From: Planctomycetota bacterium | Lineage (GTDB): Bacteria > Planctomycetota > Planctomycetia > Pirellulales > UBA1268 | Assembly (NCBI GenBank): GCA_003669585.1 | Contig: QWOQ01000005.1 | Span: 124,001-188,000, forward strand | Length of the DNA: 64,000 nt | Direction: 5' to 3' | Shown here: piece after piece, positions 7,603-20,574 of the stretch | Numbering within the stretch: position 1 is the stretch's first letter | How the letters are laid out: every line of letters starts with the position of its first letter | Notes under the pieces: model-generated | What the model saw: only the letters and a program-made list of their open reading frames with translations | Told to the model about the DNA's origin: nothing | Databases searched by the model: none | Program-made: the position numbers and the translations under genes

Positions 7603-9000
7603 TTACTGGTGACCATTGCTTTGGGCGGATCCAGACAAAATTGTCGGGCACCCAACCTGTTGTGGCTCAATTCGGGAAGGTGAGAGAACAACGACGACTC
7701 TTTGTCCATCGGTGTAGTAGGGATCGCCAGTGAGGTTGTATTTCGGTGCATCTTCAAGACAGATTCCAGCGCCGTCGACATAGCCTACGGCCTCGACACG
7801 CTTTGCTCGTAGCAAATCTTCAAGCACGTAATCGCGCGATTCATCGACATTGGGATCGACTCGATGGGTTGTGAGATTCCAAGCCCTCAAGGTAAAGCGA
7901 ATGCCGATGTCCCGACTGACTTGTCCCACCCAGACTTCTTTGTCGGAAAAGCGGAGAGGTGTCAGCCAGAGTCGAAGGTGCAATCGCTCGTTGATAGAAC
8001 TTCGAATTCGCTGCAGCGCGACATCCTGACCGCGGCCAAAGAGATACAGCGGACTGACCGGTGAGTAGCGGTATTCTTGACCGAGGAGAAACGAACGAAA
8101 AGTTTTCCAGCAGGTACCAAAAGTGATCGACTCGCATTCGTCCCATCGAGCAGCAAAAGCACTTAACAGGGTTTCGAAATTGCCGATGATCACCAAATTC
8201 ACAGGATCCCCATGCCGCACATGGCTGACGCTTGCGTTTGTTGTGGCCGCAGGCATATCGACCAGATGCGTAACCAACTGTTTGTGATCGCAGCAAATAA
8301 TCGGAGAAACGGGAGAACCTTCAGGAGCGATGAGCCTCGAATAGTCAGTCGACAGGCCGACAACAGGAATCAGAAATGTGATATTCACCGCCGGCGTACA
8401 AGGAGTCTGGGACAGTTCGCTGAGAAATGAACAGTCATCGTCTTTCGATATGCCAAGAGTGGTATAGAGACACGCTCGCACAGTTTTATTTCCTGCATCA
8501 AGAGTTGTGTAGACAAATCCTTCAACGGTTTTCCCCGGTGGAATTGGTCGCAGTGGAAATCCCAACGTATCGAAGCAGCGATCCATCCGGGTGTTCGCGC
8601 GAGATGCCGCAAACAACTTCAGCGGCAAGAAGATCAGCAGTGGCAGAAAATAAAAGGCGGCAATGCCAAATGCTGAAAGCTGTTTGAGAACCGAGAAATG
8701 ATTGAGACTCGATGCTTCAAGCGGCGTGTAATACTGCGGATCGATGTCTAATGCAAATAATCGCAGCGGCACGTTGTGGCGATTGGTAATTCTCAAAAAT
8801 ACTGGCTGTATGCTTCGCCGGGCCATAGGAACGCCAAAAACCTGCCGGCTTTCCTTTGCCGATAACACTGCAGCGGTGATTTCTGCCAGCGGCGTTGCCT
8901 TGGTCTGGCTGTCGCGCGCAAGAAAAGATCGCATCAAGGGCTGCGGTGCGTATCCGGTGGCGAAGATTCGTTCGAAAAATAGCCAGATGCGTAGAGTCAT
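7603..9000 (-). CDS. LssY C-terminal-like membrane-anchored protein
   Basis: A protein of about 465 residues with one clear hydrophobic segment (FGIAAFYFLPLLIFLPLKLF, near residue 120) and a C-terminal region resembling the LssY C-terminal domain: GDPVNLVIIGN, AFAARWDE, SPVSPLYLFGRGQDVALQ, RLHLRLW and VWVGQVSRDIGIRF. The biochemical role of this domain is not established. I chose the ATG at 9000; an in-frame TTG at 9057 that overlaps the E2 stop codon (TTGA) is the alternative and would imply coupling. It follows the E2 gene in the same direction. Why a 2-oxoacid dehydrogenase operon should carry such a protein is unclear; it might act at the membrane on the same substrate or simply be co-transcribed. 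Confidence 0.7.
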   Translation of the reverse strand: MTLRIWLFFERIFATGYAPQPLMRSFLARDSQTKATPLAEITAAVLSAKESRQVFGVPMARRSIQPVFLRITNRHNVPLRLFALDIDPQYYTPLEASSLNHFSVLKQLSAFGIAAFYFLPLLIFLPLKLFAASRANTRMDRCFDTLGFPLRPIPPGKTVEGFVYTTLDAGNKTVRACLYTTLGISKDDDCSFLSELSQTPCTPAVNITFLIPVVGLSTDYSRLIAPEGSPVSPIICCDHKQLVTHLVDMPAATTNASVSHVRHGDPVNLVIIGNFETLLSAFAARWDECESITFGTCWKTFRSFLLGQEYRYSPVSPLYLFGRGQDVALQRIRSSINERLHLRLWLTPLRFSDKEVWVGQVSRDIGIRFTLRAWNLTTHRVDPNVDESRDYVLEDLLRAKRVEAVGYVDGAGICLEDAPKYNLTGDPYYTDGQRVVVVLSPSRIEPQQVGCPTILSGSAQSNGHQ

Positions 9001-9053
9001 CGAAGATCTTTTTGCGGTGAGTTGCAAGGATTGCTTTCCAACGAATATACGAC

Positions 9054-10295
9054 TCAAGCAACATCCATAATCGACGGCGAAGGGTTGTTGATGGCACGTA
9101 CGATGTCTTGCAGGAAGCGTGCAGCAGGAGCTCCGTCGATCATGCGATGATCAAATGTCAGACTCAGCGTTATCTGATGGGTCGGGCAAATCTGCCCATC
9201 GTCCAGCACTGTCGGTTCGCGACGAATTGCACCGAGTCCTAGGATGGATGCTTCGGGAGCATTGATTATTGGCGTGAAACCATCCACGCCAAAGGCGCCG
9301 AGATTCGTGATTGTGAATACGCCTCCCCGCATTTCGTCTCGAGTGAGTTTTCCTTGACGGGCACGTTCGACTGCATCGCGCGACTGCCTTGCAATTTCCA
9401 TGATCGTATGCCCAACAATATTTCGTAACACCGGCACGAGAAGGCCATCAGACGTGTCAACTGCCATGCCGATATGAATTTCATGATCGGGTGGTAGGAC
9501 GATTGCATCCTCCTCGAGACGACCGGCGAGCAAACGGTGCTTCGCGAGAGCGTTGCCGACGAGTTTCGTAATGAAATCTTGATAGCTCGGAACCAATGCC
9601 GCATCGCTTACGGATTTAAACTGCTCGCGAAGGTTGACAAGATTGTCAGCATTTGCCTTTGAAAACAGCGTTACGGGAATCATATTCTGACGACTCGCGA
9701 CCATTCGTTGTGCGATCACCCGGCGGCGATTGGACAGAATCATTCGCTCTGCCTGAAAGTTCGGCTCCGACGAGTGTTGGGCCAGCGCCGCCTGCACGTC
9801 GCGTTGTCGCACTTGTCCTTTGGATCCGCTTCCAGCCAACTGCGTCCAGTCGAGGTTGTGGTCTCTGGCAACTCTTTTTGCTCGCGGGCTGGCAACCGTC
9901 GAGGGTCGCGGTTGGACTACAGTGCGGGCAGCTTCGTCTGTGACTTGCTCGCCAGACGCTGGCTTTTGATCGTTTGCAGAAATCTCTGGTGCGACAGTCG
10001 TCGCTTGTGGCAAAGGGGTCGTGGTCAACGCAGAATCGGAAATCGATTCGCCTTCGGCTGCCAGGTATCCCAGGAGTTGTCCAACCGGCACAACGCTTCC
10101 TTCTTTTGGAGCATCGGGAGGAATCCGTAAAATTCCATCATCGAGCGATTCAATTTCTTGAAGCGCCTTCTCGCCCTCGAGTTCAAACAGTGCCTCTCCT
10201 CGTCGTACGAAATCACCGTCTCGCTTGAGCCAGCGAATAAAAATGCCTTCCTCCATCGACCAGCCGAGTCGAGGAACCGAAATTTCGTGTGCCAT
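9054..10295 (-). CDS. 2-oxoacid dehydrogenase E2 (dihydrolipoamide acyltransferase)
   Basis: A 413-residue E2 subunit with the three standard parts: one lipoyl domain (residues 1-80, lipoyl-lysine probably Lys43 in EGEKALQE), a peripheral subunit-binding domain (about 133-172, ASPRAKRVARDHNLDW), and the acyltransferase domain with the catalytic motif DHRMIDG at 382-388 (His383, Asp387). E2 transfers the acyl group from the E1-bound intermediate to CoA. Nine bases separate it from the E1 stop codon, so the two are clearly one transcriptional unit. No E3 (lipoamide dehydrogenase) gene is in the window; a shared housekeeping E3 is presumed. Whether the complex acts on pyruvate, branched-chain oxoacids or acetoin cannot be decided here. 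Confidence 0.95.
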   Translation of the reverse strand: MAHEISVPRLGWSMEEGIFIRWLKRDGDFVRRGEALFELEGEKALQEIESLDDGILRIPPDAPKEGSVVPVGQLLGYLAAEGESISDSALTTTPLPQATTVAPEISANDQKPASGEQVTDEAARTVVQPRPSTVASPRAKRVARDHNLDWTQLAGSGSKGQVRQRDVQAALAQHSSEPNFQAERMILSNRRRVIAQRMVASRQNMIPVTLFSKANADNLVNLREQFKSVSDAALVPSYQDFITKLVGNALAKHRLLAGRLEEDAIVLPPDHEIHIGMAVDTSDGLLVPVLRNIVGHTIMEIARQSRDAVERARQGKLTRDEMRGGVFTITNLGAFGVDGFTPIINAPEASILGLGAIRREPTVLDDGQICPTHQITLSLTFDHRMIDGAPAARFLQDIVRAINNPSPSIMDVA

Positions 10296-10304
10296 GATTT
10301 CTGA

Positions 10305-12290
10305 CTACTCCTTGACGAGTGAACGAATCTCATCGGCAATTGCTGCTGCCGTCGGCACAACAGCCTGCTCGAGTGGTGGACTATACGGAGTCGGTGTAAA
10401 GACGCCTGTCAGTCGACGAATCGGAGCGTCGAGATCATCGAAACCAAAAGCGGCGACGTGTGCCGCGATTTCAGCAGCGAAGCCACAGGGTGCCGGTGGC
10501 TCATCAACGATCAGCAGGCGGCCCGTTTTGGCAACCGAGCGAAGAATTGTTTCTGTATCGAGTGGCGAGACGGTGCGAGGATCGATGAGCTCGACAGATA
10601 TGCCGTCGCGATCGAGTTGATCGCAGACCGATAGTGCCAGATGCACCATTCGAGCAAGTGCCACAACGGTAATGCTCGTGCCGGATCGAACAATATTCGC
10701 TTGACCGAATTCAATTTCGTAGTCATCCGTCGGAACGTGGCACTTGGTTGTCAGAAGCTCACGGTGTTCAAGAAACATGACCGGATCATCACACCGCAGA
10801 GCGTAGGTAAAGAGTCCTTTGGCATCGAATGCGTTTGACGGCACAACCACTCGCAGGCCCGGCACTTGGCCATACATTGCGTAATAACTGCCAGAGTGGT
10901 GGGTTGCGGCAGAATGGCCGATGCCGATGCATCCACGGAGCACGATAGGCATTGTGAGACGACCGCTCGACATGTACTGAATTTTTGCAATCTGGTTTAC
11001 GATTTCTCCAACCGAATCCAAAAGAAAGTCGGCAAACATAAAGTCGATCACCGGTCGACTGCCGGTCATGGCCGCCCCTCCGGCAAGTCCGACAAAACCT
11101 CGTTCGCAAATCGGCGTGTCGCACAGGCGGGTAGATCCATAAAGATCATAAAGACCTTTGGTCGTCATGAAGTTTCCACCGCGCTCCCCAATGCCTTCGC
11201 CCATAACAAAAATGCCAGGATTGATAGCCATTTCATGTTGAAGTGCCTCGTGTGTCGCTTGCGTGAAGGTGATTATTCTCACGTCAGATGGCACGGAGGG
11301 AATTGTCGCAGCGCGTACTGAAATCGCTCGAGGTGCACTGTAGATATTTGCTGAAGCGAGCGATGCTTCGGGCAATGGACTTGCTTCGGCGAAGAGCCGC
11401 GACTGTGTCACAAGCGATTGAATCTCAGACTCGATGTGGATGATCCGGGCTTCGTCGATGCCAAAGTCGCTGAGCATCCGAGATCGCAGCGATAGAATCG
11501 GACAACGTTTTTTCCACTGTTCAACCTGATCGCGAGTTCTATAGGAGAAGTCCCCCATTCCTTCGGCATGCGCGCGAGTGCGGTATGTTTTGCATTCAAT
11601 TAAGGTTGCGCCATCACCGCTGCGGGCTCGTGTCACCGCCTCGCGAGCGACTTCTGCGACGGCCAGTACGTCGTTTCCATCGACTTCAAACCCGGGCAGG
11701 CCGTAGTTACTTGCGCGACGACCTACTTCTGGAATGCCGCTGGAGTAGGTAAACGGCACCTCTGTGGCAAATTGATTGTTTTCGCAGATAAAAAGAACTG
11801 GGAGTTTCCAGATGCTCGCCATGTTGAGCCCTTCATGGAACGCGCCATTGTTGACAGCGCCATCACCGAAGAACGCTACAGAGACTCGCCCTGTTTTGAG
11901 AAGTTTTGAACTGTATCCGCCTCCGCATGCCTGAAGAATGCAGGGGCCGACGATGCCGCTGGTGCCCATCATGCCGATCTCGGGCGAAAATAGATGCATC
12001 GACCCACCTCGTCCACGCGAGCAGCCAGTCGCTCGGCCAAAGAGTTCAGCCATCAGTTCTTGCGGAGGCATTCCTTTTGCCAGAGCATGGCCGTGTCCGC
12101 GATGGGTACTGAAGATTGAATCGTCTCGATTCAGAAATGCACAGACTCCTGTTGAGATTGCTTCCTGACCGACGTAGGTATGGCATGCTCCGAAAATGAG
12201 TCCTTGCTGATGGCAACGAGCCAATTCCTCTTCCGTAAGACGGATGATGAGCATGGTGCGATAGAGGGCAAGCAGTTCGGATGCGTCCAT
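10305..12290 (-). CDS. 2-oxoacid dehydrogenase E1, fused alpha and beta subunits
   Basis: A 661-residue single-chain E1. The alpha part (residues 1 to about 335) contains the thiamine diphosphate motif beginning at GDGAVNNG (142-149) and ending at ENN (170-172), and the phosphorylation-loop-like YRTRAHAEGMGDFSYRT segment. The beta part (about 345-661) has the typical CERGFVGLAGGAAMTGSRPV and HSAATHHSGSYYA stretches and ends with the transketolase C-terminal fold (LLIVDEPP). In most bacteria alpha and beta are separate genes; fusion is known in some lineages. The start MDASELL at 12290 matches family N-termini; the frame extends upstream only as non-homologous sequence overlapping the SDR gene. 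It forms an operon with the E2 gene. Confidence 0.93.
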   Translation of the reverse strand: MDASELLALYRTMLIIRLTEEELARCHQQGLIFGACHTYVGQEAISTGVCAFLNRDDSIFSTHRGHGHALAKGMPPQELMAELFGRATGCSRGRGGSMHLFSPEIGMMGTSGIVGPCILQACGGGYSSKLLKTGRVSVAFFGDGAVNNGAFHEGLNMASIWKLPVLFICENNQFATEVPFTYSSGIPEVGRRASNYGLPGFEVDGNDVLAVAEVAREAVTRARSGDGATLIECKTYRTRAHAEGMGDFSYRTRDQVEQWKKRCPILSLRSRMLSDFGIDEARIIHIESEIQSLVTQSRLFAEASPLPEASLASANIYSAPRAISVRAATIPSVPSDVRIITFTQATHEALQHEMAINPGIFVMGEGIGERGGNFMTTKGLYDLYGSTRLCDTPICERGFVGLAGGAAMTGSRPVIDFMFADFLLDSVGEIVNQIAKIQYMSSGRLTMPIVLRGCIGIGHSAATHHSGSYYAMYGQVPGLRVVVPSNAFDAKGLFTYALRCDDPVMFLEHRELLTTKCHVPTDDYEIEFGQANIVRSGTSITVVALARMVHLALSVCDQLDRDGISVELIDPRTVSPLDTETILRSVAKTGRLLIVDEPPAPCGFAAEIAAHVAAFGFDDLDAPIRRLTGVFTPTPYSPPLEQAVVPTAAAIADEIRSLVKE

Positions 12291-12372
12291 AGAATATTCC
12301 GATTTGTAGAAATCAATCTGTGAAGGTGAAAAAACTGAAAACTTGTTTTGCCGGCATGAGGCTAAAGAAAAA

Positions 12373-13182
12373 CTATTGCAAGGGAGGGGATGCTGCATGC
12401 CGCATTGTCGCGCCAGCATTGGCTGCAAGATTGCCACCATCCATGGCAATGATGGCTCCGGTAATCCAGCTCGATGCATCTGACGCCAGCAGCACGACAA
12501 GCCCCTGAATGTCATTGGGCTGACCGAGTCGCCCGCGGGGAATACCGCGCAACCACTGCTCCTCGAGTGACGGATCGGCCATCATGCGCTTGAGAAGACC
12601 GGGATTGACAACCTGTGCCGGCAAAATCGAGTTGACTCGCACACCGTGCCCCGACCATTCGGTGCTGAGTTCGCGAGTCATCTGCACAACTGCTCCCATC
12701 GCCATGCTGTAGGCAATGTGGCCGCGGCCAAGCGATGAAACACTGGCAAGTGACCCAATATTGAGAATGCTTCCTCGACCAGCGGAAAGCATTCGGCGTC
12801 CCGCTTCCTGACACATAATAAATCGACCAAACACAAGGTTGTCAAAAACCTGGTGCACTTTTTCAAGAGAAATGTCCTCGGGATTTCCGAGCAGACCTTC
12901 GCCGGCAAAATTCCCCAGAAAATCAATCCTTCCAAACTCCGTATCGAGTGTTGCAAACATCTTTCGAATGGCTTCAGGTTCAGAGACATTGCAGGAAACA
13001 GCAACGGCTCGCCTGCCAATGGCACAAATAGCATCGGCAGTTTCACGAAGCCCTTCGGCATTGATGTCGCATATCAAGAGATCTGCACCATGCTCCGCTA
13101 AAGCCAGCGACGCAGCGCGCCCCATGCCGCTGGCCGCACCCGAGACGAGTGCGACAGTGCCAGTAAGATCAAACAGAGACAT
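12373..13182 (-). CDS. SDR-family oxidoreductase with the catalytic lysine replaced by methionine
   Basis: A 269-residue classical short-chain dehydrogenase/reductase. The cofactor motif is SGAASGMG (residues 14-21), the structural motif is NFAG at 91-94, the catalytic Ser lies in NIGSLASVS (141-149) and the Tyr is Tyr158. The YxxxK motif, however, reads YSMAM: Met162 replaces the lysine that lowers the Tyr pKa and binds the nicotinamide ribose. An ATG for AAG change at that codon explains it. The protein may be inactive, altered, or have lost redox function. The start at 13182 has GAGGA upstream and matches family N-termini; the longer frame to 13302 overlaps the transporter gene. It lies 32 bases after the Nramp-like gene. 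Confidence 0.9.
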   Translation of the reverse strand: MSLFDLTGTVALVSGAASGMGRAASLALAEHGADLLICDINAEGLRETADAICAIGRRAVAVSCNVSEPEAIRKMFATLDTEFGRIDFLGNFAGEGLLGNPEDISLEKVHQVFDNLVFGRFIMCQEAGRRMLSAGRGSILNIGSLASVSSLGRGHIAYSMAMGAVVQMTRELSTEWSGHGVRVNSILPAQVVNPGLLKRMMADPSLEEQWLRGIPRGRLGQPNDIQGLVVLLASDASSWITGAIIAMDGGNLAANAGATMRHAASPPLQ

Positions 13183-13214
13183 CAGAGAAATCCTCATCGC
13201 GAGTGACGGCCTGG

Positions 13215-14798
13215 CTATTGTGCCCACCAGTGCATCAGCGCTGGCCATTGTTTTTCGAAAAATACAAGGAGTGCGAGACCGAGATAAAAAATTGCACAGC
13301 ATCCAACCCCGAGTGTTTGGTACCAGCGGGGACGAAGCTCTCGGGGCAAAAGCGTGTGGTTGATCCAGAGAAGCTGAATCGACGTGATGCCGATGGCGAG
13401 GTTGTTGAGGTTCGCGATGACGATGGTCATTAGTTTCGGAGTACCGTAAGTGCTAAAGAGGTAGGCGCAGACAAGGGACCAAAGCACATAGCTTGCGAGA
13501 ATCCCATAGTAGATTTTTTTTACGTCGCGAGGACGAAAAGAATCACGAACGCGTTGATGAGAAGTCCAGATGGCATCTGTCCATCGACGACTGAAGTCAT
13601 CGATGATCGACATCTGGCTCGGTAGCATTACCGCGATACCGGCAAAAAGAGCAGTGATCCAGAGAAGTTTTGTGACTGCAGGAGCCAGACCCGGCGCCAA
13701 TCGCATTCCGTCTGCAGTAATAATTGCCGCAGACCATGCAAGACCGCTTTCCTGAAGAGTGGAGTAGGGGGCGAATCTGATCGACATCAACGCCGGAAGC
13801 GCCATGCCCATAAAACAACCCGGCCCCCAAATATAGATCTGATCCGTCAGAATGTATCGCCACCAACCACGCCAGCGCCGGAGGTTGTCAGCGTTTATGG
13901 GAAAGACTGTGCCGACGTGGCTCAAAGTTACGTGAGTGCCGCCGACGGCACTGCCAATGGCCCCAACGAGACTCCCCATTCCCCAGCCTTTGTCGCGTAC
14001 AAAATTGCTGTAGGTTGAATTCGATAATCCACCGCCGCCAGCATAGCCAGCAAAGGCACCGAGCACAGCGATATGCGCCATGGACACTGTTGGCCATTGT
14101 CCATACTCGTAGTAATAGCCAAACGCGTTGACGAGCGTTTCACCAGATTGGCCATCGGAAACGGGAACATTTCCAAACTTTACAAATCCACTGAAGATCT
14201 GCCACCACTGATACGGCTCGACAAAACAAATTCCGATGAACAGACAAAAGCCCAGTACGAACAATACTTTCGCGGCCATCACCGTCTGCAGCATGTTGTA
14301 GACTTTTCCTCCAACAAGAATCGGAAGTGCCACTGCCAGAAGGCATGCATAGGCCAGGCCGATCACAAGCCACTTATCGTCAGCGGTTGGTGGTCGCCCT
14401 AACACCAGCGAAGCGATGATCGCCGCACCGTGAGTTGAGAGTCCTGGAATCAGGGCACTGCCATTGAGCAGCAACATGAACCCCATCCAAAGACCAGGCC
14501 CCGGTCGCATGCGCATGAAACCGGTAAAGACTGGCTCGCCGCAGTAGAGTGCGTAGCGGCCACACTCGAGGTTGTAAAAGACTTGCAGCACGATTGCGAC
14601 CGTCGCAATCCACATGAGTCCACCGCCATATTTCGCAGTGATTTCTGGACCAAAAAGCCATTCGCCGCCGCCGATCTGAATTCCCATCATGACGATGCCT
14701 GGACCGATAAAACTTTTCCAGTTTTTCCATGAAAGGGGCTTCGGTTCAGGAAGGTCAGCGGTATTCCAGGTGGGAATGGGGGAGATTGGTGGAAGCAT
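13215..14798 (-). CDS. Nramp-like membrane transporter without the canonical metal-binding motif
   Basis: A 527-residue polytopic membrane protein with about eleven hydrophobic segments. The start of the first segment, SFIGPGIVMMGIQIGGGEW, aligns with the Nramp/MntH TM1 pattern, but the DPGN metal-binding sequence is missing (IGGGEW stands there), and no MPH motif is seen in the TM6 region, where VGGTHVTLSHVGT is found. Planctomycete proteins of this kind are often labelled Nramp-family metal transporters from overall similarity, but loss of these ligands argues that the substrate here is not a transition metal. Sitting inside a catabolic gene cluster, it may import the cluster's organic substrate, perhaps as an APC-superfold symporter. 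This is inference. Confidence 0.75.
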   Translation of the reverse strand: MLPPISPIPTWNTADLPEPKPLSWKNWKSFIGPGIVMMGIQIGGGEWLFGPEITAKYGGGLMWIATVAIVLQVFYNLECGRYALYCGEPVFTGFMRMRPGPGLWMGFMLLLNGSALIPGLSTHGAAIIASLVLGRPPTADDKWLVIGLAYACLLAVALPILVGGKVYNMLQTVMAAKVLFVLGFCLFIGICFVEPYQWWQIFSGFVKFGNVPVSDGQSGETLVNAFGYYYEYGQWPTVSMAHIAVLGAFAGYAGGGGLSNSTYSNFVRDKGWGMGSLVGAIGSAVGGTHVTLSHVGTVFPINADNLRRWRGWWRYILTDQIYIWGPGCFMGMALPALMSIRFAPYSTLQESGLAWSAAIITADGMRLAPGLAPAVTKLLWITALFAGIAVMLPSQMSIIDDFSRRWTDAIWTSHQRVRDSFRPRDVKKIYYGILASYVLWSLVCAYLFSTYGTPKLMTIVIANLNNLAIGITSIQLLWINHTLLPRELRPRWYQTLGVGCCAIFYLGLALLVFFEKQWPALMHWWAQ

Positions 14799-14861: not shown

Positions 14862-16607
14862 TCATTCCAAAACAATTGCTCTGCCGGGACCACCGTGGCA
14901 GTCGCGAACCTTGATAGCCGCAAAGAGAAAATATCCTGTCGGTGAAATGTTTCCGAAGTTCTGTAAGAACTCGACGCCGACCATCTCGCGGCTTCCAAGT
15001 GCCCAGTAGGTCATAAGAGCCCGTTTGGGATCGACACCGCCAAGATCGGGAGCATCGGTAGCGATACAACGAATTCCTTTGCTCTTGAGATAGACAATGG
15101 CCTCAGGGCCCGGAGCTGGCCAGCCTTCGCTGGTGCCACGAAGAGGATCCAGCCAAACGCCCTTCTCGTTGGGCAGCGGTCTGTAATGTCTGTCGAGATG
15201 GCCTGTATAAAAAAGAACAATATCTGTGGGATTGAGAGGACCGTGCTCTTTTTCGTAGCCCTCGATATGAGTCCGAAGAATTTCTGGTGACGCCGGCCAT
15301 GATGCTTGACGAGTGCTACCGACGAGCGAACGAACGTCAATGACTCTTGCCGGTCCGCAGGTCCATTGAAGCGGAACTTTTTCTGTGGTCATCGAACTTG
15401 TGCCGCGCGGCCCATAGTTTTTTTCGTATTCGATCAGCCATCCGCGTACCTCCGGGGAATGTATTGGAGGTGTTCCTTCAAGAGGAAGTGAATACGAAGG
15501 TGGAACCAGATGGCTTCCTGCCATCGAATCCATCAGATGCGCGTGGTGCCAAAGATCGAGATACTCCGAGTACAGAAAATCAATTTTGAGATAGACCTGC
15601 CGATGCTGTCCGGTTGCGATGCCTGGAGACGTGATCGGCATTTGTGTTCCAAGCGTTGGCGAGAGGTCGAGTGCCCGCTTGTTTTTGGCCGCATCGATGA
15701 GCCGCTTTGGTAATTCACCACCAACAATTGAGAACGCTCGTCCTTCGCCATAGGGAGCCCCTTGATGTTTTGGGCCGAGCATGCAGGTGAAGGCTCCCGT
15801 TGGCGGCAGGGCTTTATAATTTGTGGCACTTTCCGTCCAGATCATGCCGTGTTTGAGACCCGCATAGTGCGTTGGTTCGGCGAGATCCGGTAGCGGCCCC
15901 ATGCTCGCACTGTCGGTTCCAAGAGTCATCACACCGCGCGACGCTAGAAATTCCATGCAATCTGGATTTGGGTCTGGAAACCCCGGGGCTTTGCGATCGA
16001 GTGCATCGGCGATAAATCGACTTCCTTCAGGAAACGGTCTGTAATAGAGATCCGAATAATCGCTCCGAAAAAGTACCACATCCCCTTGTCGCAAGCGTCG
16101 ATTGCGCTTTTCAAACTCCATCACACGCTCTGGCGTCACCAGCGGGCTGACACCCTTGGGAGCCTTGTCGAGCAGATCGCACACATCGATTACGCAGGCC
16201 TCGCCCCCAAACTGCCACGGCTCGATCGTGTCGGTGTAAGCCAGCCCCAAAGGCCCCGACTTCTCTCGCATGAGTTCGGGACGAGCAACGGAGTGTGGTG
16301 GCACGTCGAGTTGCGTTCCGGTGTTTCCATCAATCAACAGTACGTCAACATTGTATGCAGAATCTGGACCAATCGTGCGTTGATGCGTGATCTGAAACCT
16401 TGGAAATGGAGCCGATGGCCAGGTGCATGGATACTCTGGAGCGATGATTAACGAGTGGTCAACAAAAGTAGATTCACTCGATCCGATCACCGCTGAGGGC
16501 TGTGTCGTGGTCTCTAAGGCGCTGAGATGTTGGATCAGAAGGATGCCAATCATCACAGCCACACATGCCGAGTAGCATCGTAAAAAAAAAGAATCTCTTC
16601 TACTCAT
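14862..16607 (-). CDS. Exported tandem-domain cyclase-family (kynurenine formamidase-like) protein
   Basis: A 581-residue protein with a hydrophobic signal segment near residues 13-30 and two consecutive cyclase-family (PF04199-type) domains, each ending with a similar block: QGDVVLFRSDYSDLYYRP in the first and TDIVLFYTGHLDRHYRP in the second. Family enzymes are Mn/Zn hydrolases that open cyclic amides, esters or formamides through an HxGTHxDxPxH motif. Here the motif is degenerate: domain 1 reads NTGTQLDVPPH (residues 95-105, two His lost), domain 2 reads MAGSHLVPPSY (first His, Asp and last His lost). The start at 16607 is an ATG with GGGG upstream; the frame to 16637 begins with TTG inside the upstream gene boundary. 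It follows the Ldh-type gene by 30 bases. Confidence 0.85.
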   Translation of the reverse strand: MSRRDSFFLRCYSACVAVMIGILLIQHLSALETTTQPSAVIGSSESTFVDHSLIIAPEYPCTWPSAPFPRFQITHQRTIGPDSAYNVDVLLIDGNTGTQLDVPPHSVARPELMREKSGPLGLAYTDTIEPWQFGGEACVIDVCDLLDKAPKGVSPLVTPERVMEFEKRNRRLRQGDVVLFRSDYSDLYYRPFPEGSRFIADALDRKAPGFPDPNPDCMEFLASRGVMTLGTDSASMGPLPDLAEPTHYAGLKHGMIWTESATNYKALPPTGAFTCMLGPKHQGAPYGEGRAFSIVGGELPKRLIDAAKNKRALDLSPTLGTQMPITSPGIATGQHRQVYLKIDFLYSEYLDLWHHAHLMDSMAGSHLVPPSYSLPLEGTPPIHSPEVRGWLIEYEKNYGPRGTSSMTTEKVPLQWTCGPARVIDVRSLVGSTRQASWPASPEILRTHIEGYEKEHGPLNPTDIVLFYTGHLDRHYRPLPNEKGVWLDPLRGTSEGWPAPGPEAIVYLKSKGIRCIATDAPDLGGVDPKRALMTYWALGSREMVGVEFLQNFGNISPTGYFLFAAIKVRDCHGGPGRAIVLE

Positions 16608-16637
16608 AGGTACGTTCCCCAAAAGGTCCAATAACAA

Positions 16638-17720
16638 TCATTGCGACGCTTGCCCTTCAAAAGGAGAAGAGAGTCCGACGGTCTTGGCTGCATTTGATAA
16701 TGTGGCAACGACATCTGCAGGGAGTGCGATTCCGTCGGTATGCGCTTGCCGATAGAGTTGCCATTCGCGTTCGCCAGGGAGGAGAACCCGCTCGATACCT
16801 TCTGCAGTTGCGGCAGCATGGATCTCATCAATCAGAGTTCCCAGACGTTTATAAAACTGCTCGATTGGAACGATGGCTGCAATATCAATCGCGATGAACG
16901 AAGCGTTGTGGTGGCTTGGAACAGTGGCATCATCAAACATCCAGCTTCCAACCTGCCAGGTCGAATGCCCGCCGGGTAGAATGGCCGAAAGAATTTCGCA
17001 CCACAGTCCGAAGGCATAGCCCTTGTGTCCTGCCATCGGCGCCAGCGATGCAGCCTGAGGATAGAGGCTGCCGTCAGAAGTGGGTTGGCCGTTATGATCG
17101 ATCAACCAAGAGGGTGGAATCGGTTCTCCTCTTTGAATCGCGGCATAGACCTTGCCTCCGGCAACTGCTGCGGTTGCCATGTCAAGCAGGATTGGATCAC
17201 CGTTGCCAACGGGAATTCCATAGGCAATAGGATTGCTTCCAAGCACTGCTCTTCGCGAGCCAGGGGCAGCGACACTCGGAATATCATTTCCGGTGACAAG
17301 TCCGATCAAGCCTTCGCGAGCGGCCAAGGCTGCGTAGTATCCTGCGGCGCCGATGTGACCAGTATGACGAAGAGCAACGTAAGCGATTCCAACGTGATGG
17401 GCTTTTTTTATGGCTGTCTGCATGGCAAAGACGCTGCCCACTTGTCCCAGTGCGTTTTGGCCGTCGATGAGTGCAAAACCGAGCCCCTCTCGTTCAATGC
17501 AAGGACGAGCTGTTGGCCGATAGCCGCCCGCTTTGAGTTTGTTGAGATAGCCGGCGAGCAATTTTGTGCCGTGTGTAAAAACCCCCATCGCATCAGTGGT
17601 GACGAGTGCATCAGAAGCGATTGCGGAATCCGAGGAATTCATTCCCACTCGCAGAAAGGCAGAGCAGCAAAACTCAGAAAGTTTTTGGGGTGAAATTCGG
17701 AAATGTTCGCAGGTGGTCAT
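16638..17720 (-). CDS. Ldh-family (malate/L-lactate/ureidoglycolate-type) dehydrogenase
   Basis: A 360-residue member of the type-2 malate/L-lactate dehydrogenase family (Ldh_2, PF02615-type), which uses a fold unrelated to classical lactate dehydrogenase and oxidises 2-hydroxyacids, ureidoglycolate, 2,3-diketogulonate or delta-1-piperideine-2-carboxylate with NAD(P). Visible family blocks are DAMGVFTHGTKLL near residue 45, the catalytic-His region LRHTGHIGAAGYYA near 120, RRAVLGSNPIAYGIP near 155 and MAGHKGYAFGLWCEILS near 228. Six bases separate it from the upstream DapA-type gene, so the two are co-translated. Its product could feed the aldolase or the 2-hydroxyacid dehydrogenases encoded around it. 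Confidence 0.92.
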   Translation of the reverse strand: MTTCEHFRISPQKLSEFCCSAFLRVGMNSSDSAIASDALVTTDAMGVFTHGTKLLAGYLNKLKAGGYRPTARPCIEREGLGFALIDGQNALGQVGSVFAMQTAIKKAHHVGIAYVALRHTGHIGAAGYYAALAAREGLIGLVTGNDIPSVAAPGSRRAVLGSNPIAYGIPVGNGDPILLDMATAAVAGGKVYAAIQRGEPIPPSWLIDHNGQPTSDGSLYPQAASLAPMAGHKGYAFGLWCEILSAILPGGHSTWQVGSWMFDDATVPSHHNASFIAIDIAAIVPIEQFYKRLGTLIDEIHAAATAEGIERVLLPGEREWQLYRQAHTDGIALPADVVATLSNAAKTVGLSSPFEGQASQ

Positions 17721-17726
17721 CGTAGA

Positions 17727-18653
17727 TTACGTCTCTCGCACGGTGTAGCCGAGAGATCGAAGACTCGCGGCGAGAGTTGCTCGATGCGATGCCTCGAGTG
17801 GAAGAATCGGCGGGCAGGGGTCACCCACAGGCGGCCCGATCATGTTGAGAGCTGCCTTCATCACGCCCAACCAGTGCGCACCGTCACCTTTGGAGTGATA
17901 GGCACTAAATTGAAGCCGCATCAGTGGCCCGAGTTGCTTCCAGAGAGTGCGAGCTTCGTGTAAATCACCGCGCACACGAACCGCTTCGTAGAATCGCTTT
18001 GCAACAGCAGGCACCATGCTAGGAATCCCGGAAATCCATCCGTGTGCGCCGTGGCAAAGTCCTTCGAAGGCGACCGTGTCGATGCCCGCGTAGACGAAAA
18101 GACGACCGTCTGTGGCTTGAAGCAGTTCGCAGATGCGATCGGGTTCTGGGTTTGACATCTTCACGCCGCCGATTGCTCCCTCAGAAAAAAGTGCAACAAG
18201 ATGCTCGGTCTTCAGATCGATCCCCGTGAGTGGAATATTGTGGTAGAGAATGATCGGAATCGAAACCGCCTCGGCCACGCGGCGATAGTGATCCATCACC
18301 TGACTTGGCGTGGGGGCCATATAGTAGGGAGGCACGATCAAAAGCGCATCCGCGCCAGCCTTTTCGGCATGCCGTGACAGCTCAACGGTGAGCTTTGTGG
18401 AGATATGATGCGTTCCGGCTACCATCGGGACCCGGCCTGCATTTGCCTCCAGAGCAGCCTCGAGCACACGCTTTCGATCATCGACTTCAAGTGAAGAAAA
18501 CTCTCCGGAACTTCCGAGCGGCGAAAGTGCGTCGGCCCCTTCGCGAATCAGCCAATCAATGTGTGCGGGCAACTGTTGAAATGCAACGCTTCCGTCAGAA
18601 TGAAAGGGAGTAATGCTTGAAGCGCACACGCCGCGAAAAAGTGGTTTGGTCAT
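17727..18653 (-). CDS. Dihydrodipicolinate synthase/N-acetylneuraminate lyase-family aldolase
   Basis: A 308-residue class I (Schiff base) aldolase of the DapA/NanA superfamily. The substrate carboxylate loop reads LGSSGEFSSL (normally GTTGE), the Tyr that shuttles protons is in ILYHNIP, and the Schiff-base lysine is in GGVKMSNPE. Members cleave or form 2-oxo-3-deoxy acids, or dehydrate/decarboxylate sugar acids. Its place in a cluster with hydroxyacid dehydrogenases, an SMP-30 lactonase and a second, class II aldolase argues for a sugar-acid-like degradation step rather than lysine synthesis. The start at 18653 has AGGAG eight bases upstream; the frame to 18740 would overlap the neighbouring dehydrogenase gene. 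Confidence 0.92.
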   Translation of the reverse strand: MTKPLFRGVCASSITPFHSDGSVAFQQLPAHIDWLIREGADALSPLGSSGEFSSLEVDDRKRVLEAALEANAGRVPMVAGTHHISTKLTVELSRHAEKAGADALLIVPPYYMAPTPSQVMDHYRRVAEAVSIPIILYHNIPLTGIDLKTEHLVALFSEGAIGGVKMSNPEPDRICELLQATDGRLFVYAGIDTVAFEGLCHGAHGWISGIPSMVPAVAKRFYEAVRVRGDLHEARTLWKQLGPLMRLQFSAYHSKGDGAHWLGVMKAALNMIGPPVGDPCPPILPLEASHRATLAASLRSLGYTVRET

Positions 18654-18717
18654 GCAAGGACTCCTGAAAATATCTCTCACTCGTGCGTCAATTCGTCGTC
18701 TGAAAACAGCCTTGTGT

Positions 18718-19689
18718 TCAGGTGCTCTTTCCGACCCCATTTACAATATTCGGGAGCGGTTCTCCTCGCAGGGCCATCGCCGCAATCGTCGCTGCTGTTT
18801 CCCGTAATGTGCGAACTGCTCGCACACTGCACGAAGCAATGTGTGAGGCGAAAATGACGTTTTCCATCTGCAACATTGGATGGTCAGACGGAATTGGTTC
18901 TGGTGTGAAAACGTCGAGAGCCGCCGCCGAAAGATGTTTTTTGAGTAGAGCTTCGCACAAGGCATCGGAATCGATCAGGTCTCCGCGAGCAACATTGATC
19001 AGGATCGCACCTTGCTTCATAGCAGAGAGTGAATCACGATTGATCATTCCACGAGTCTGGGGCATTGAAGGACAGTGCAACGAAATCAAATCTGATTCAG
19101 CAAACAATTGATCCATACGAACGCTGTGGCAACCTGATTTCTCGACGGCCGCATCGGTGACAGCAGGATCGTGTACGAGTACGCGACAGTGAAACGGTTG
19201 CAGCCGAGCCGCCACTTCGCGACCAATCCTTCCGAAACCAACAAGGCCGACCGTCAGATCGCGAAGAGTTCGCATCTGCTCGAGCGGCGTGGCCAATCCC
19301 CAACGTCCTTCGCGAACCGCATGGCAGTTGCTCAAGACCTGCCGAGTGGTTGCGAGCATGAAAGCGAGAGTCTGGTCGGCGACTTCATCAATGCAATAAT
19401 CGGGAACATTGCAGACGGGAATCCCTCTTGCTTTTGCCGCGAGAAGGTCGACGTTGTCTACGCCGATGCCGTATCGCACGATCACCCGCGCTCGCTGCAT
19501 GCTCTGGATTACGTCAGCGGTAAGTGGTGCAAACTGCGTAATCACCGCATCGGCGTCGGCAAGGAGCTCTGACAACTGTTGTGCGGAATGTTTTTCTTTC
19601 CACGCGGCAATCTGGTGTCCCTGGGGGCACAGAATGCCTTCCTCAACGTCGAGGTTTGGGAATGAGTAATCGGTGATTGCAACTTTCAT
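18718..19689 (-). CDS. D-2-hydroxyacid dehydrogenase (C-terminal-binding-protein-like)
   Basis: A 323-residue D-2-hydroxyacid dehydrogenase, first gene of the minus-strand cluster. It contains VRYGIGVDNVDLLAA and CIDEVADQTLAF, typical of the C-terminal-binding-protein-like subgroup, the NAD motif GFGRIG, and the catalytic Arg (INVARGDLID), Glu (TPEP) and His (FASHIAS). It is divergent from the FadR-type regulator gene (165 bases between start codons), with an operator-like palindrome in between, so it probably starts the regulated transcript. This is the third member of the family in the window; the three differ clearly in sequence and are not recent copies. Confidence 0.92.
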   Translation of the reverse strand: MKVAITDYSFPNLDVEEGILCPQGHQIAAWKEKHSAQQLSELLADADAVITQFAPLTADVIQSMQRARVIVRYGIGVDNVDLLAAKARGIPVCNVPDYCIDEVADQTLAFMLATTRQVLSNCHAVREGRWGLATPLEQMRTLRDLTVGLVGFGRIGREVAARLQPFHCRVLVHDPAVTDAAVEKSGCHSVRMDQLFAESDLISLHCPSMPQTRGMINRDSLSAMKQGAILINVARGDLIDSDALCEALLKKHLSAAALDVFTPEPIPSDHPMLQMENVIFASHIASCSVRAVRTLRETAATIAAMALRGEPLPNIVNGVGKST

Positions 19690-19755: not shown

Positions 19756-19772
19756 AGATTGTCTGATAATCT
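19756..19772. promoter_or_regulatory. Candidate operator of the FadR/GntR-type regulator (17-bp near-palindrome)
   Basis: AGATTGTCTGATAATCT pairs at seven of eight positions around the central T, with a single mismatch. Such odd-length, T/A-ended palindromes with a GTC-N-GA-like core resemble binding sites of FCD-type GntR regulators. It lies 83 bases upstream of the regulator start (19855) and 66 bases upstream of the divergent dehydrogenase start (19689), so one site could control both directions. Confidence 0.55.
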
Positions 19773-19854
19773 AATGAACGCACGAGCACTTGGCAACTCA
19801 CTCCATGTGAGAAACTTTTGTGAGAGGATTTGGTTGGTACGGAAGGTCTATTCA

Positions 19855-20574
19855 ATGCCTCTTGTAAAACAGATGAACGTGATTGGCCGTCCAAAGCTGC
19901 GCACGATTGTGGCCGATCGGCTAAAGACATTTATTGTCAAACACAATCTTCAATCGGGCGATCGTTTGCCGACAGAAACAGAGCTTGCAAAAAAGTTCGG
20001 GGTGAGTCGGCTGAGTTTGCGTGAAGCCACCAAGTCGTTTGAGTTTCTGGGGATTCTTGAATCGAAGCCGGGCCGCGGTCTGACCGTTGGCAGTGTGAAT
20101 ATGGAACGAGTCACCGAGTATCTCGGATTTCATCCGGCGTTGCACGGCATCTCACTGAGCGAATTAATTGACACTCGAGTGTTGATCGAAACGGGTGTTC
20201 TTGCACATGTTTCGCAGCGCATGAAACAGAATGATGTGCTCTACGATAAACTCAGCACAATCAATGAGAGTCTTCGTCAGGCCAGGAGTCTGGCCCGATG
20301 GATCGAACTCGATAGTGCGTTTCATCGTGAACTGATCTGTGCCAGCGGCCTTTCGCCCCTGATGGCGTTTACGGACGTGCTTGCTGTGTTTTTCAAGCGA
20401 TTTCGAGAAAGCATTCAAAAAGCAGAGTGGTCGCAGGGAATTCAAAGTCATCAGCAGATCATCGAGTTCTTGAAGGCTGGCCGCGTGGTTGATGCGAAAA
20501 AGGAACTGCGATTTCATATCGAGAGTCATTCACAGCGAGTGAAAACGCCTACTCAGTATCGTGATCGCAAATAG
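19855..20574 (+). CDS. FadR/GntR-family (FCD domain) transcriptional regulator
   Basis: A 239-residue regulator. Residues about 10-75 form the GntR winged helix-turn-helix (LQSGDRLPTETELAKKFGVS, then LREATKSFEFLGILESKPGRGLTV), and residues about 95-230 the FCD ligand-binding domain with the conserved D..FH motif (ELDSAFHRELICASG) and the downstream SHQQIIEFLKAG helix whose His residues usually bind a metal. Such regulators usually bind small carboxylic acids. The start at ATG 19855 has GGAAGG upstream; the frame extends to 19759 only through the operator-like sequence. Divergent position from the catabolic cluster suggests it represses that cluster and perhaps itself, with a pathway acid as the inducer. 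It ends 20 bases before the PSCyt1-type gene, so it may be co-transcribed with it. Confidence 0.92.
   Translation: MPLVKQMNVIGRPKLRTIVADRLKTFIVKHNLQSGDRLPTETELAKKFGVSRLSLREATKSFEFLGILESKPGRGLTVGSVNMERVTEYLGFHPALHGISLSELIDTRVLIETGVLAHVSQRMKQNDVLYDKLSTINESLRQARSLARWIELDSAFHRELICASGLSPLMAFTDVLAVFFKRFRESIQKAEWSQGIQSHQQIIEFLKAGRVVDAKKELRFHIESHSQRVKTPTQYRDRK

Follow-up and report, generated by a model that had tools for sequence, protein, structure and literature searches.

We report that the gene at positions 13215-14798 of the window (the whole stretch of planctomycete DNA that was analysed, 64,000 nucleotides) encodes an Nramp-related protein, P0001, which probably is a secondary carrier of the GxGE group with an Nramp (LeuT-type) fold, taking up a small hydroxy- or oxo-carboxylate for use by its own operon. 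This reading is based on the predicted fold, the loss of the metal and TM3 proton-path residues, the placement of the clade, and the linkage to genes for an SDR oxidoreductase and the E1 and E2 components of a dehydrogenase complex. Because the metal ligands are lost and the gene travels together with genes for organic-acid catabolism, the imported compound is probably a small organic acid and not a metal. The preliminary description of this DNA had raised a new substrate for the fold, possibly an organic acid; a non-metal, probably organic-acid substrate is indeed the likeliest, its nature being read from the gene neighbourhood only, while the novelty has to be reduced given that PxpT, an NRAMP family member, is needed for 5-oxoproline use according to PMC13274462.

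The operon and its divergent regulator comprise the following genes:

19759..20574, plus strand: GntR/FCD regulator, divergent
18718..19689, minus strand: D-2-hydroxyacid dehydrogenase family (PF00389/PF02826)
17727..18740, minus strand: DHDPS/aldolase family protein (PF00701)
16638..17720, minus strand: LDH2-type malate/lactate/sulfolactate/ureidoglycolate dehydrogenase family (PF02615)
14862..16637, minus strand: tandem protein of the cyclase family (PF04199), with 591 aa if the listed TTG start is used; both halves have a degenerate metal motif
13215..14798, minus strand: P0001, Nramp-related carrier, 527 aa, with GGGE (residues 43-46) replacing DPGN and AGGGGLSN in TM6
12373..13302, minus strand: SDR oxidoreductase, for which the Rossmann domain agrees with a start at 13182 (residue 40 of the listed ORF, counting from 0)
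10305..12515, minus strand: E1 with fused alpha and beta parts, from a dehydrogenase complex of the 2-oxoacid/acetoin type; its true start is probably further downstream than listed
9054..10295, minus strand: lipoyl E2 acyltransferase of the same complex as E1
7603..9057, minus strand: LssY_C protein, overlapping E2 by 4 nt; operon membership by position only

The gene order is D-2-hydroxyacid dehydrogenase, DHDPS/aldolase, LDH2-type, cyclase-family, carrier, SDR, E1 and E2, with gaps of -23, 6, 0 and 63 nt from the 2-hydroxyacid dehydrogenase gene to the carrier gene. With the SDR start at 13182, 32 nt separate this gene from that of the carrier; as listed, both SDR and E1 begin within the preceding genes. 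That the carrier is part of a catabolic operon, as suggested before, was borne out, since the genes from 2-hydroxyacid dehydrogenase to LssY_C are on the same strand and, as far as the E2/LssY_C junction, no gap exceeds 63 nt. In two other loci (L011 and L051) a GntR/FCD orthologue is likewise encoded close to the carrier gene but on the other strand. A palindromic operator sought between the GntR and the 2-hydroxyacid dehydrogenase genes was not found.

In the cyclase-family protein the HxGTHxDxPxH metal motif is mostly lost (GNTGTQLDVPPH in the N-terminal half and MAGSHLVPPSY in the C-terminal half); the orthologues closely agree in this degenerate motif, with the N-terminal half of the L008 protein being nearer to the canonical form. 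Judged by eye, the cyclase-like orthologues begin with Sec-type signal peptides. As far as can be read from its sequence, the protein may have been repurposed or may serve to bind a substrate after export, and it may not be an active hydrolase. Its nearest solved structure is isatin hydrolase, which opens a lactam. For the operon enzymes as a group, family and PDB searches did not pinpoint the exact substrate. The genome carries a separate housekeeping AceE (1393 bits), and the operon E1/E2 is therefore not its sole PDH-type enzyme and was rejected as the housekeeping PDH; a second PF00676 match is located on contig C14. The genome also carries FeoB, such that iron has another entry route.

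The carrier ORF runs from 14798 to 13215 on the minus strand, which the preliminary description did not give, and encodes 527 aa. It is a genuine gene: the ORF is kept across an 18-row clade and scores 159.3 bits against NCBIfam NF037982 (Nramp_1; curated cut-off 50), a match that says nothing on whether the name "divalent metal transporter" is correct. NF037982 matches 22 of 22 family members (E 0.001). PF01566 of Pfam gave no match to P0001 at E 0.1 and to none of the 22 members at E 1. No Nramp was retrieved in a PDB sequence search with P0001, nor in one with the 22-row profile, where the 29 matches were all ribosomal protein L4; as a consequence, the link between P0001 and Nramp rests on NCBIfam, hhalign and the fold. 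NF037982 is an "equivalog" model named divalent metal transporter, yet it covers proteins without any metal ligand, and its label therefore passes to all of them. Our best reading is that P0001 is mislabelled as a "divalent metal transporter".

Among 294 genomes of the phylum, 51 have a match to P0001 (E 0.001), in many cases through distant paralogues. The genome analysed here has a second Nramp-related gene of the GSGE type on contig C16 (locus L069, 9086-10717), which has a methyltransferase gene as its neighbour; nothing else in the genome matches PF01566. Moreover, several carrier homologues (L013-L019 and L059-L061) have DxDxDG-repeat-rich inserts of up to about 170 residues between TM5 and TM6; these are EF-hand/FG-GAP-like (FG-GAP_3 matches weakly in 4 of 22 members) and, as predicted from the alignment, the insert loop should face outward.

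The AlphaFold model of P0001, generated from a 22-row alignment, has a mean pLDDT of 83.1 and a pTM of 0.86. When aligned to the PDB using VIA-align, the 16 best rows were all from the Nramp family (Z 29.2-27.4) and included DraNramp, YcsG, BfraNramp, human NRAMP1, DMT1 and EleNRMT, in keeping with the Nramp-like fold proposed earlier. A DraNramp chain was best (Z 29.2, rmsd 3.2, 383 aligned) and the YcsG model 9a52 (Z 29.0) tied with it; the first non-Nramp was KimA (Z 24.9), and some Nramp chains (ScaDMT, EcoDMT and NRAT) score no better than other LeuT-fold carriers. Foldseek placed the YcsG-FabL model 9a52 at the top and NKCC1 second, followed by Nramp chains and other APC carriers. On the basis of the model, the predicted fold of P0001 is that of Nramp, with other LeuT-fold carriers behind. 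Using hhalign, the 22-row profile aligned to four canonical Nramps only locally (56%, 109 columns) and to a six-member Nramp-related (GxGE/GxAD) set over the full length (99.7%, E 2.5e-25, 421 columns), and this set bridges to the canonical Nramps (99.3%). The closest profile to P0001 is consequently the GxGE/GxAD set and not the canonical Nramps.

For the metal ligands we used the DraNramp numbering (Asp56, Asn59, Glu134, Met230 and His232). DPGN and MPH are both absent from the P0001 translation, as first noticed, and IGGGEW (residues 42-47) occupies the DPGN position, with hhalign pairing QIGGGEWL and YIDPGNFA of canonical Nramps. In the 78-row alignment the DPGN columns of P0001 are changed from D to G, P to G, G to G and N to E. 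The MPH columns are G-G-L, with neither Met nor His at 230 and 232, and AGGGGLSN replaces the TM6 motif, the register of TM6 relative to canonical Nramps being less certain than that of TM1. The five ligand and proton-path residues are all kept in 6 of 6 canonical rows, and each of them is found in 0/18 rows of the P0001 clade, 0/9 of the sister clade and 0/41 of the other Nramp-related rows. Overall, none of the 68 Nramp-related rows retains the TM1 Asp, the TM1 Asn, the TM6 Met or the TM3 Glu134, where the TM3 result is weaker than that of TM1 because the TM3 register has gaps. The selectivity-defining ligands are hence replaced, as claimed: metal ligands are kept in 0/68 Nramp-related rows compared to 6/6 canonical. 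The Asn59 column is Glu in 67/68 rows (the exception being His in L104, a long branch) and the Met230 column is Gly in 66/68; two GxAD rows (L105 and L106), tallied separately, have Asp at the Asn59 column. TM9 residues were also tabulated, the register there being unsure. In the AlphaFold model TM1 is broken at residues 42-44 (helices 33-41 and 45-57), i.e. at the motif. DraNramp D56A serves as an inactive control according to PMC13060092.

The phylogenetic tree was computed from 78 rows under LG+C20 PMSF, excluding L012 and L017 (both partial). Canonical Nramps and NRMT constitute one clade (100/100) with P0001 outside; P0001 belongs to an 18-row clade (100/100) nested among the GxGE planctomycete proteins that make up a 30-row clade (100/100). 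The GxAD relatives L105 and L106 fall on the canonical side, away from P0001 (94/91), while L103, L104, L098 and L110 have long branches and unsure positions. The preliminary description had named phylogenetic placement as its check, with a position within the true metal transporters speaking against it; P0001 is placed outside them. Full-length profile similarity and tree placement both make P0001 a member of the GxGE/GxAD set. It is one of the "Nramp-related" proteins, with the predicted fold and without DPGN/MPH and the TM3 proton residues. Proteins lacking both motifs have already been described as a large paraphyletic group, and the groups other than NRMT and MntG were called "entirely uncharacterized", in a 2026 preprint (PMC12873925). 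Those proteins (NRMT-like and G-motif groups) resemble P0001 in having the Nramp fold without DPGN/MPH and proton-path residues, and we infer that the GxGE set falls in the G-motif groups; the available text of the preprint names neither the GGGE planctomycete clade nor the operon or an acid link. Literature searches on Nramp combined with planctomycetes, organic acid or lactate returned no paper on the P0001 clade or operon. For further Nramp sources, see PMC10606218 and PMC9606685.

Canonical Nramp/MntH/DMT1 (SLC11) proteins share the fold with P0001 at 9-13% identity over 334-429 aligned residues, but they have DPGN, MPH and the TM3 Glu, and P0001 and the 22 members are unmatched by PF01566. 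The NRMT (Mg2+) motifs are DxxG in TM1 and TxxA/T in TM6 (see PMC8806188); in the 78-row alignment P0001 lacks the TM1 Asp. Like P0001, the EleNRMT Mg2+ transporters have an altered binding site in an Nramp fold; unlike P0001, EleNRMT keeps the TM1 Asp (DAGG) and groups with the canonical Nramps (100/100).

To score conservation of the linkage, the operon genes were searched at 1e-20 in 19 close-clade, 9 sister-clade and 28 other planctomycete loci. A same-strand SDR gene is present within 300 bp of the carrier in 15 of the 16 close-clade loci with more than 1 kb downstream (exception L005), and E1 in 13 of the 15 loci that extend 1.8 kb or more downstream (exceptions L005 and L007). The cyclase-like gene is the direct upstream neighbour of the carrier in seven loci (L013-L016, L018, L019 and L051) and after SDR in L008. 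SDR, E1, E2 and cyclase were detected at this threshold in 0/9 sister-clade and 0/28 other planctomycete loci; LDH2-family matches with 29% identity were found in L061 and L064. The carriers of L004 and L012 (the latter partial) share 97-98% identity with P0001, but other genes stand upstream of them, namely two SDR-like genes and a 2-hydroxyacid dehydrogenase (34%), with the downstream DNA missing. Compared to window positions 14862-19689, this suggests that supply modules are swapped around a fixed carrier. The linkage counts together with the L004/L012 differences lead to a stable carrier-SDR-E1-E2 core with variable upstream supply genes. Counted against an acid substrate are the L005 carrier, which is 79% identical to P0001 and has none of the operon genes, and the lack of the operon in all nine sister-clade loci. 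In L005 a gluconolactonase-family (SGL) gene (12003-12896) adjoins the carrier on the other strand.

A Pfam scan of neighbours took in 40 out of a much larger number of proteins; 30 of the 40 came from planctomycete loci of the sister clade or further away and from the locus of the genome's second Nramp-related gene. The outcome was mixed, i.e. mannonate dehydratase, gluconolactonase and LDH2-type genes, and also LepA, PrmA, a tRNA synthetase, a sulfatase-modifying-type protein, DUF1501/DUF1553 and others; a mannonate dehydratase is near the carrier in L062. Given these mixed neighbour functions, only in the operon clade and in some of the distant groups can the link to acids be called strong.

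Distant relatives were represented by 12 annotated GxGE plasmid loci (L092-L103; L091 is unannotated) with flanks of 6 to 9 kb, and canonical carriers by seven plasmid loci (L107, L108, L109 and L129-L132), both samples being small and not scored blind. Clear hydroxy- or sugar-acid genes are near the GxGE gene in 6 of the 12 (L092, L093, L095, L096, L101 and L103). Specifically, the Nramp-related genes of L092 are near LutABC, lactate racemase, a four-carbon acid kinase and PdxA; L093 and L095 have L-lactate permease and an FAD/Fe-S dehydrogenase, L101 PdxA/acid kinase/aldolase, and L103 mannonate dehydratase and a DHDPS family gene near the carrier. The cases of L094, with isocitrate lyase, and L098, with D-arabinono-1,4-lactone oxidase, are arguable, and in L097, L099, L100 and L102 the neighbours are not of the acid-metabolism kind. 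The L092 locus (Rubrobacter indicoceani plasmid) has two different Nramp-related genes in a single acid-catabolism cluster, which also includes two cyclase-family genes and a UxaA hydrolase. The L100 gene (Roseomonas marmotae plasmid) is of the GSGE type and comes immediately after a cluster for the synthesis of a 2,3-dihydroxybenzoate siderophore, a position that speaks for a metal or siderophore link of that branch. This unevenness, with six clear loci out of 12 and one bordering a siderophore cluster, counts against an acid substrate. For the canonical controls, a gene annotated as MntR or as a metal-dependent regulator is within two genes of the carrier in 4 of 7 loci (L108, L129, L130 and L131) compared to 0/12 beside the GxGE carrier, where L096 has an ArsR-family neighbour; in the canonical L132 a D-lactate dehydrogenase is four genes away, which also counts against the acid reading.

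If P0001 imports such an acid, the SDR would oxidise the hydroxyacid (or acyloin) that is taken up, and E1/E2 would convert the resulting 2-oxo compound into an acyl-CoA. The LDH2-type and 2-hydroxyacid dehydrogenases, the aldolase and the exported cyclase-like protein might feed in other stereoisomers or precursors, and the GntR/FCD regulator would sense the acid. In the carrier, the invariant Glu46 in the TM1 break (Asn in metal Nramps) could carry H+ or bind Na+ to drive uptake, and the glycine-rich TM1 and TM6 breaks could give room and backbone NH groups for the carboxylate.

We regard it as unlikely, though deserving attention, that P0001 has remained an importer of a divalent metal (Mn2+, Mg2+ or other), which would pass through a rebuilt Glu46 site and serve the operon enzymes as a cofactor. 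Cyclase-family enzymes and TPP-dependent E1 use divalent metals, which counts in favour of metal import, as does the GSGE-type gene beside siderophore genes in L100. However, metal import would not serve the cyclase-like enzymes because the orthologues carry export signals, and "metal for the cyclase" was set aside on that ground. Metal import by a related protein has been proposed for YcsG/MntG: B. subtilis YcsG is reported as a Mn2+ importer in PMC10448178, where overexpression raised cell Mn2+, MntR binds the ycsG promoter, an mntH mntA ycsG triple mutant was unobtainable without ectopic ycsG, and an earlier 5-oxoproline phenotype is said to be open to polar effects. This report counts against the acid reading, and EleNRMT demonstrates that the fold can take Mg2+ with an altered site (according to PMC8806188). 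What argues against metal import by P0001 is the loss of four ligand/proton-path positions in 68 of 68 rows, and a regulator of the GntR/FCD type together with the contrast in MntR-type neighbours given above.

It is quite unlikely that the substrate of P0001 resembles an amino acid or is a cyclic amide (5-oxoproline type), with the cyclase-like protein and the dehydrogenases serving that compound. The precedent is C. glutamicum PxpT, which is 50% identical to YcsG, NRAMP by TCDB, and whose deletion abolishes growth on 5-oxoproline, with the pxp operon under the GntR-type repressor PxpR (all as given in PMC13274462); like P0001 it thus combines the NRAMP family, a catabolic operon and a GntR-type regulator. 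The wider APC fold includes amino-acid carriers (Z about 24), and the isatin hydrolase match of the cyclase-like protein points the same way. Unlike P0001, the GxAD-type stand-ins for PxpT/YcsG (L105 and L106, YcsG-like by inference) branch on the canonical side, the relation having been judged through these two and not through verified PxpT/YcsG sequences; four plasmid stretches searched for a verified PxpT beside pxpA (gene tables and tblastn) had no Nramp gene. Moreover, pxpA, pxpB and pxpC gave no match at 1e-9 in 56 planctomycete loci (a set without the window), nine scanned window neighbours include no pxpABC Pfam family, no aminotransferase or amidase family is present among the scanned window neighbours, and the conserved SDR-E1-E2 core handles oxo-compounds. 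Finally, a non-transporting membrane sensor or scaffold linked to the operon would agree with the finding of no published transport assay for the Nramp-related group (as far as PMC12873925 reports), but is highly improbable considering the full-length LeuT-type fold predicted with a TM1 break at the motif, and that P0001 is the only carrier-like gene among ten scanned neighbours.

Nramp is the textbook metal-ion family, and pipelines label its distant members divalent metal transporters too. Beyond P0001, we tentatively raise the possibility, to which we give somewhat less than even weight, that GxGE Nramp-related proteins are widespread unrecognised carriers of hydroxycarboxylates (lactate, glycerate, tetronate and sugar acids) in planctomycetes, haloarchaea, actinobacteria and others, all filed as "divalent metal transporter", and that canonical Nramp metal transport arose inside this organic-anion lineage by the change from GxGE to DPGN. 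If organic acids are indeed what the GxGE branch transports, the annotation of a large block of proteins would be wrong, and the origin of Nramp metal selectivity would become a testable swap of a few residues in an anion carrier. The planctomycete operon, which combines a single carrier and a single SDR with a dedicated 2-oxoacid dehydrogenase complex, the substrate of which is open to biochemical identification, offers a ready system.
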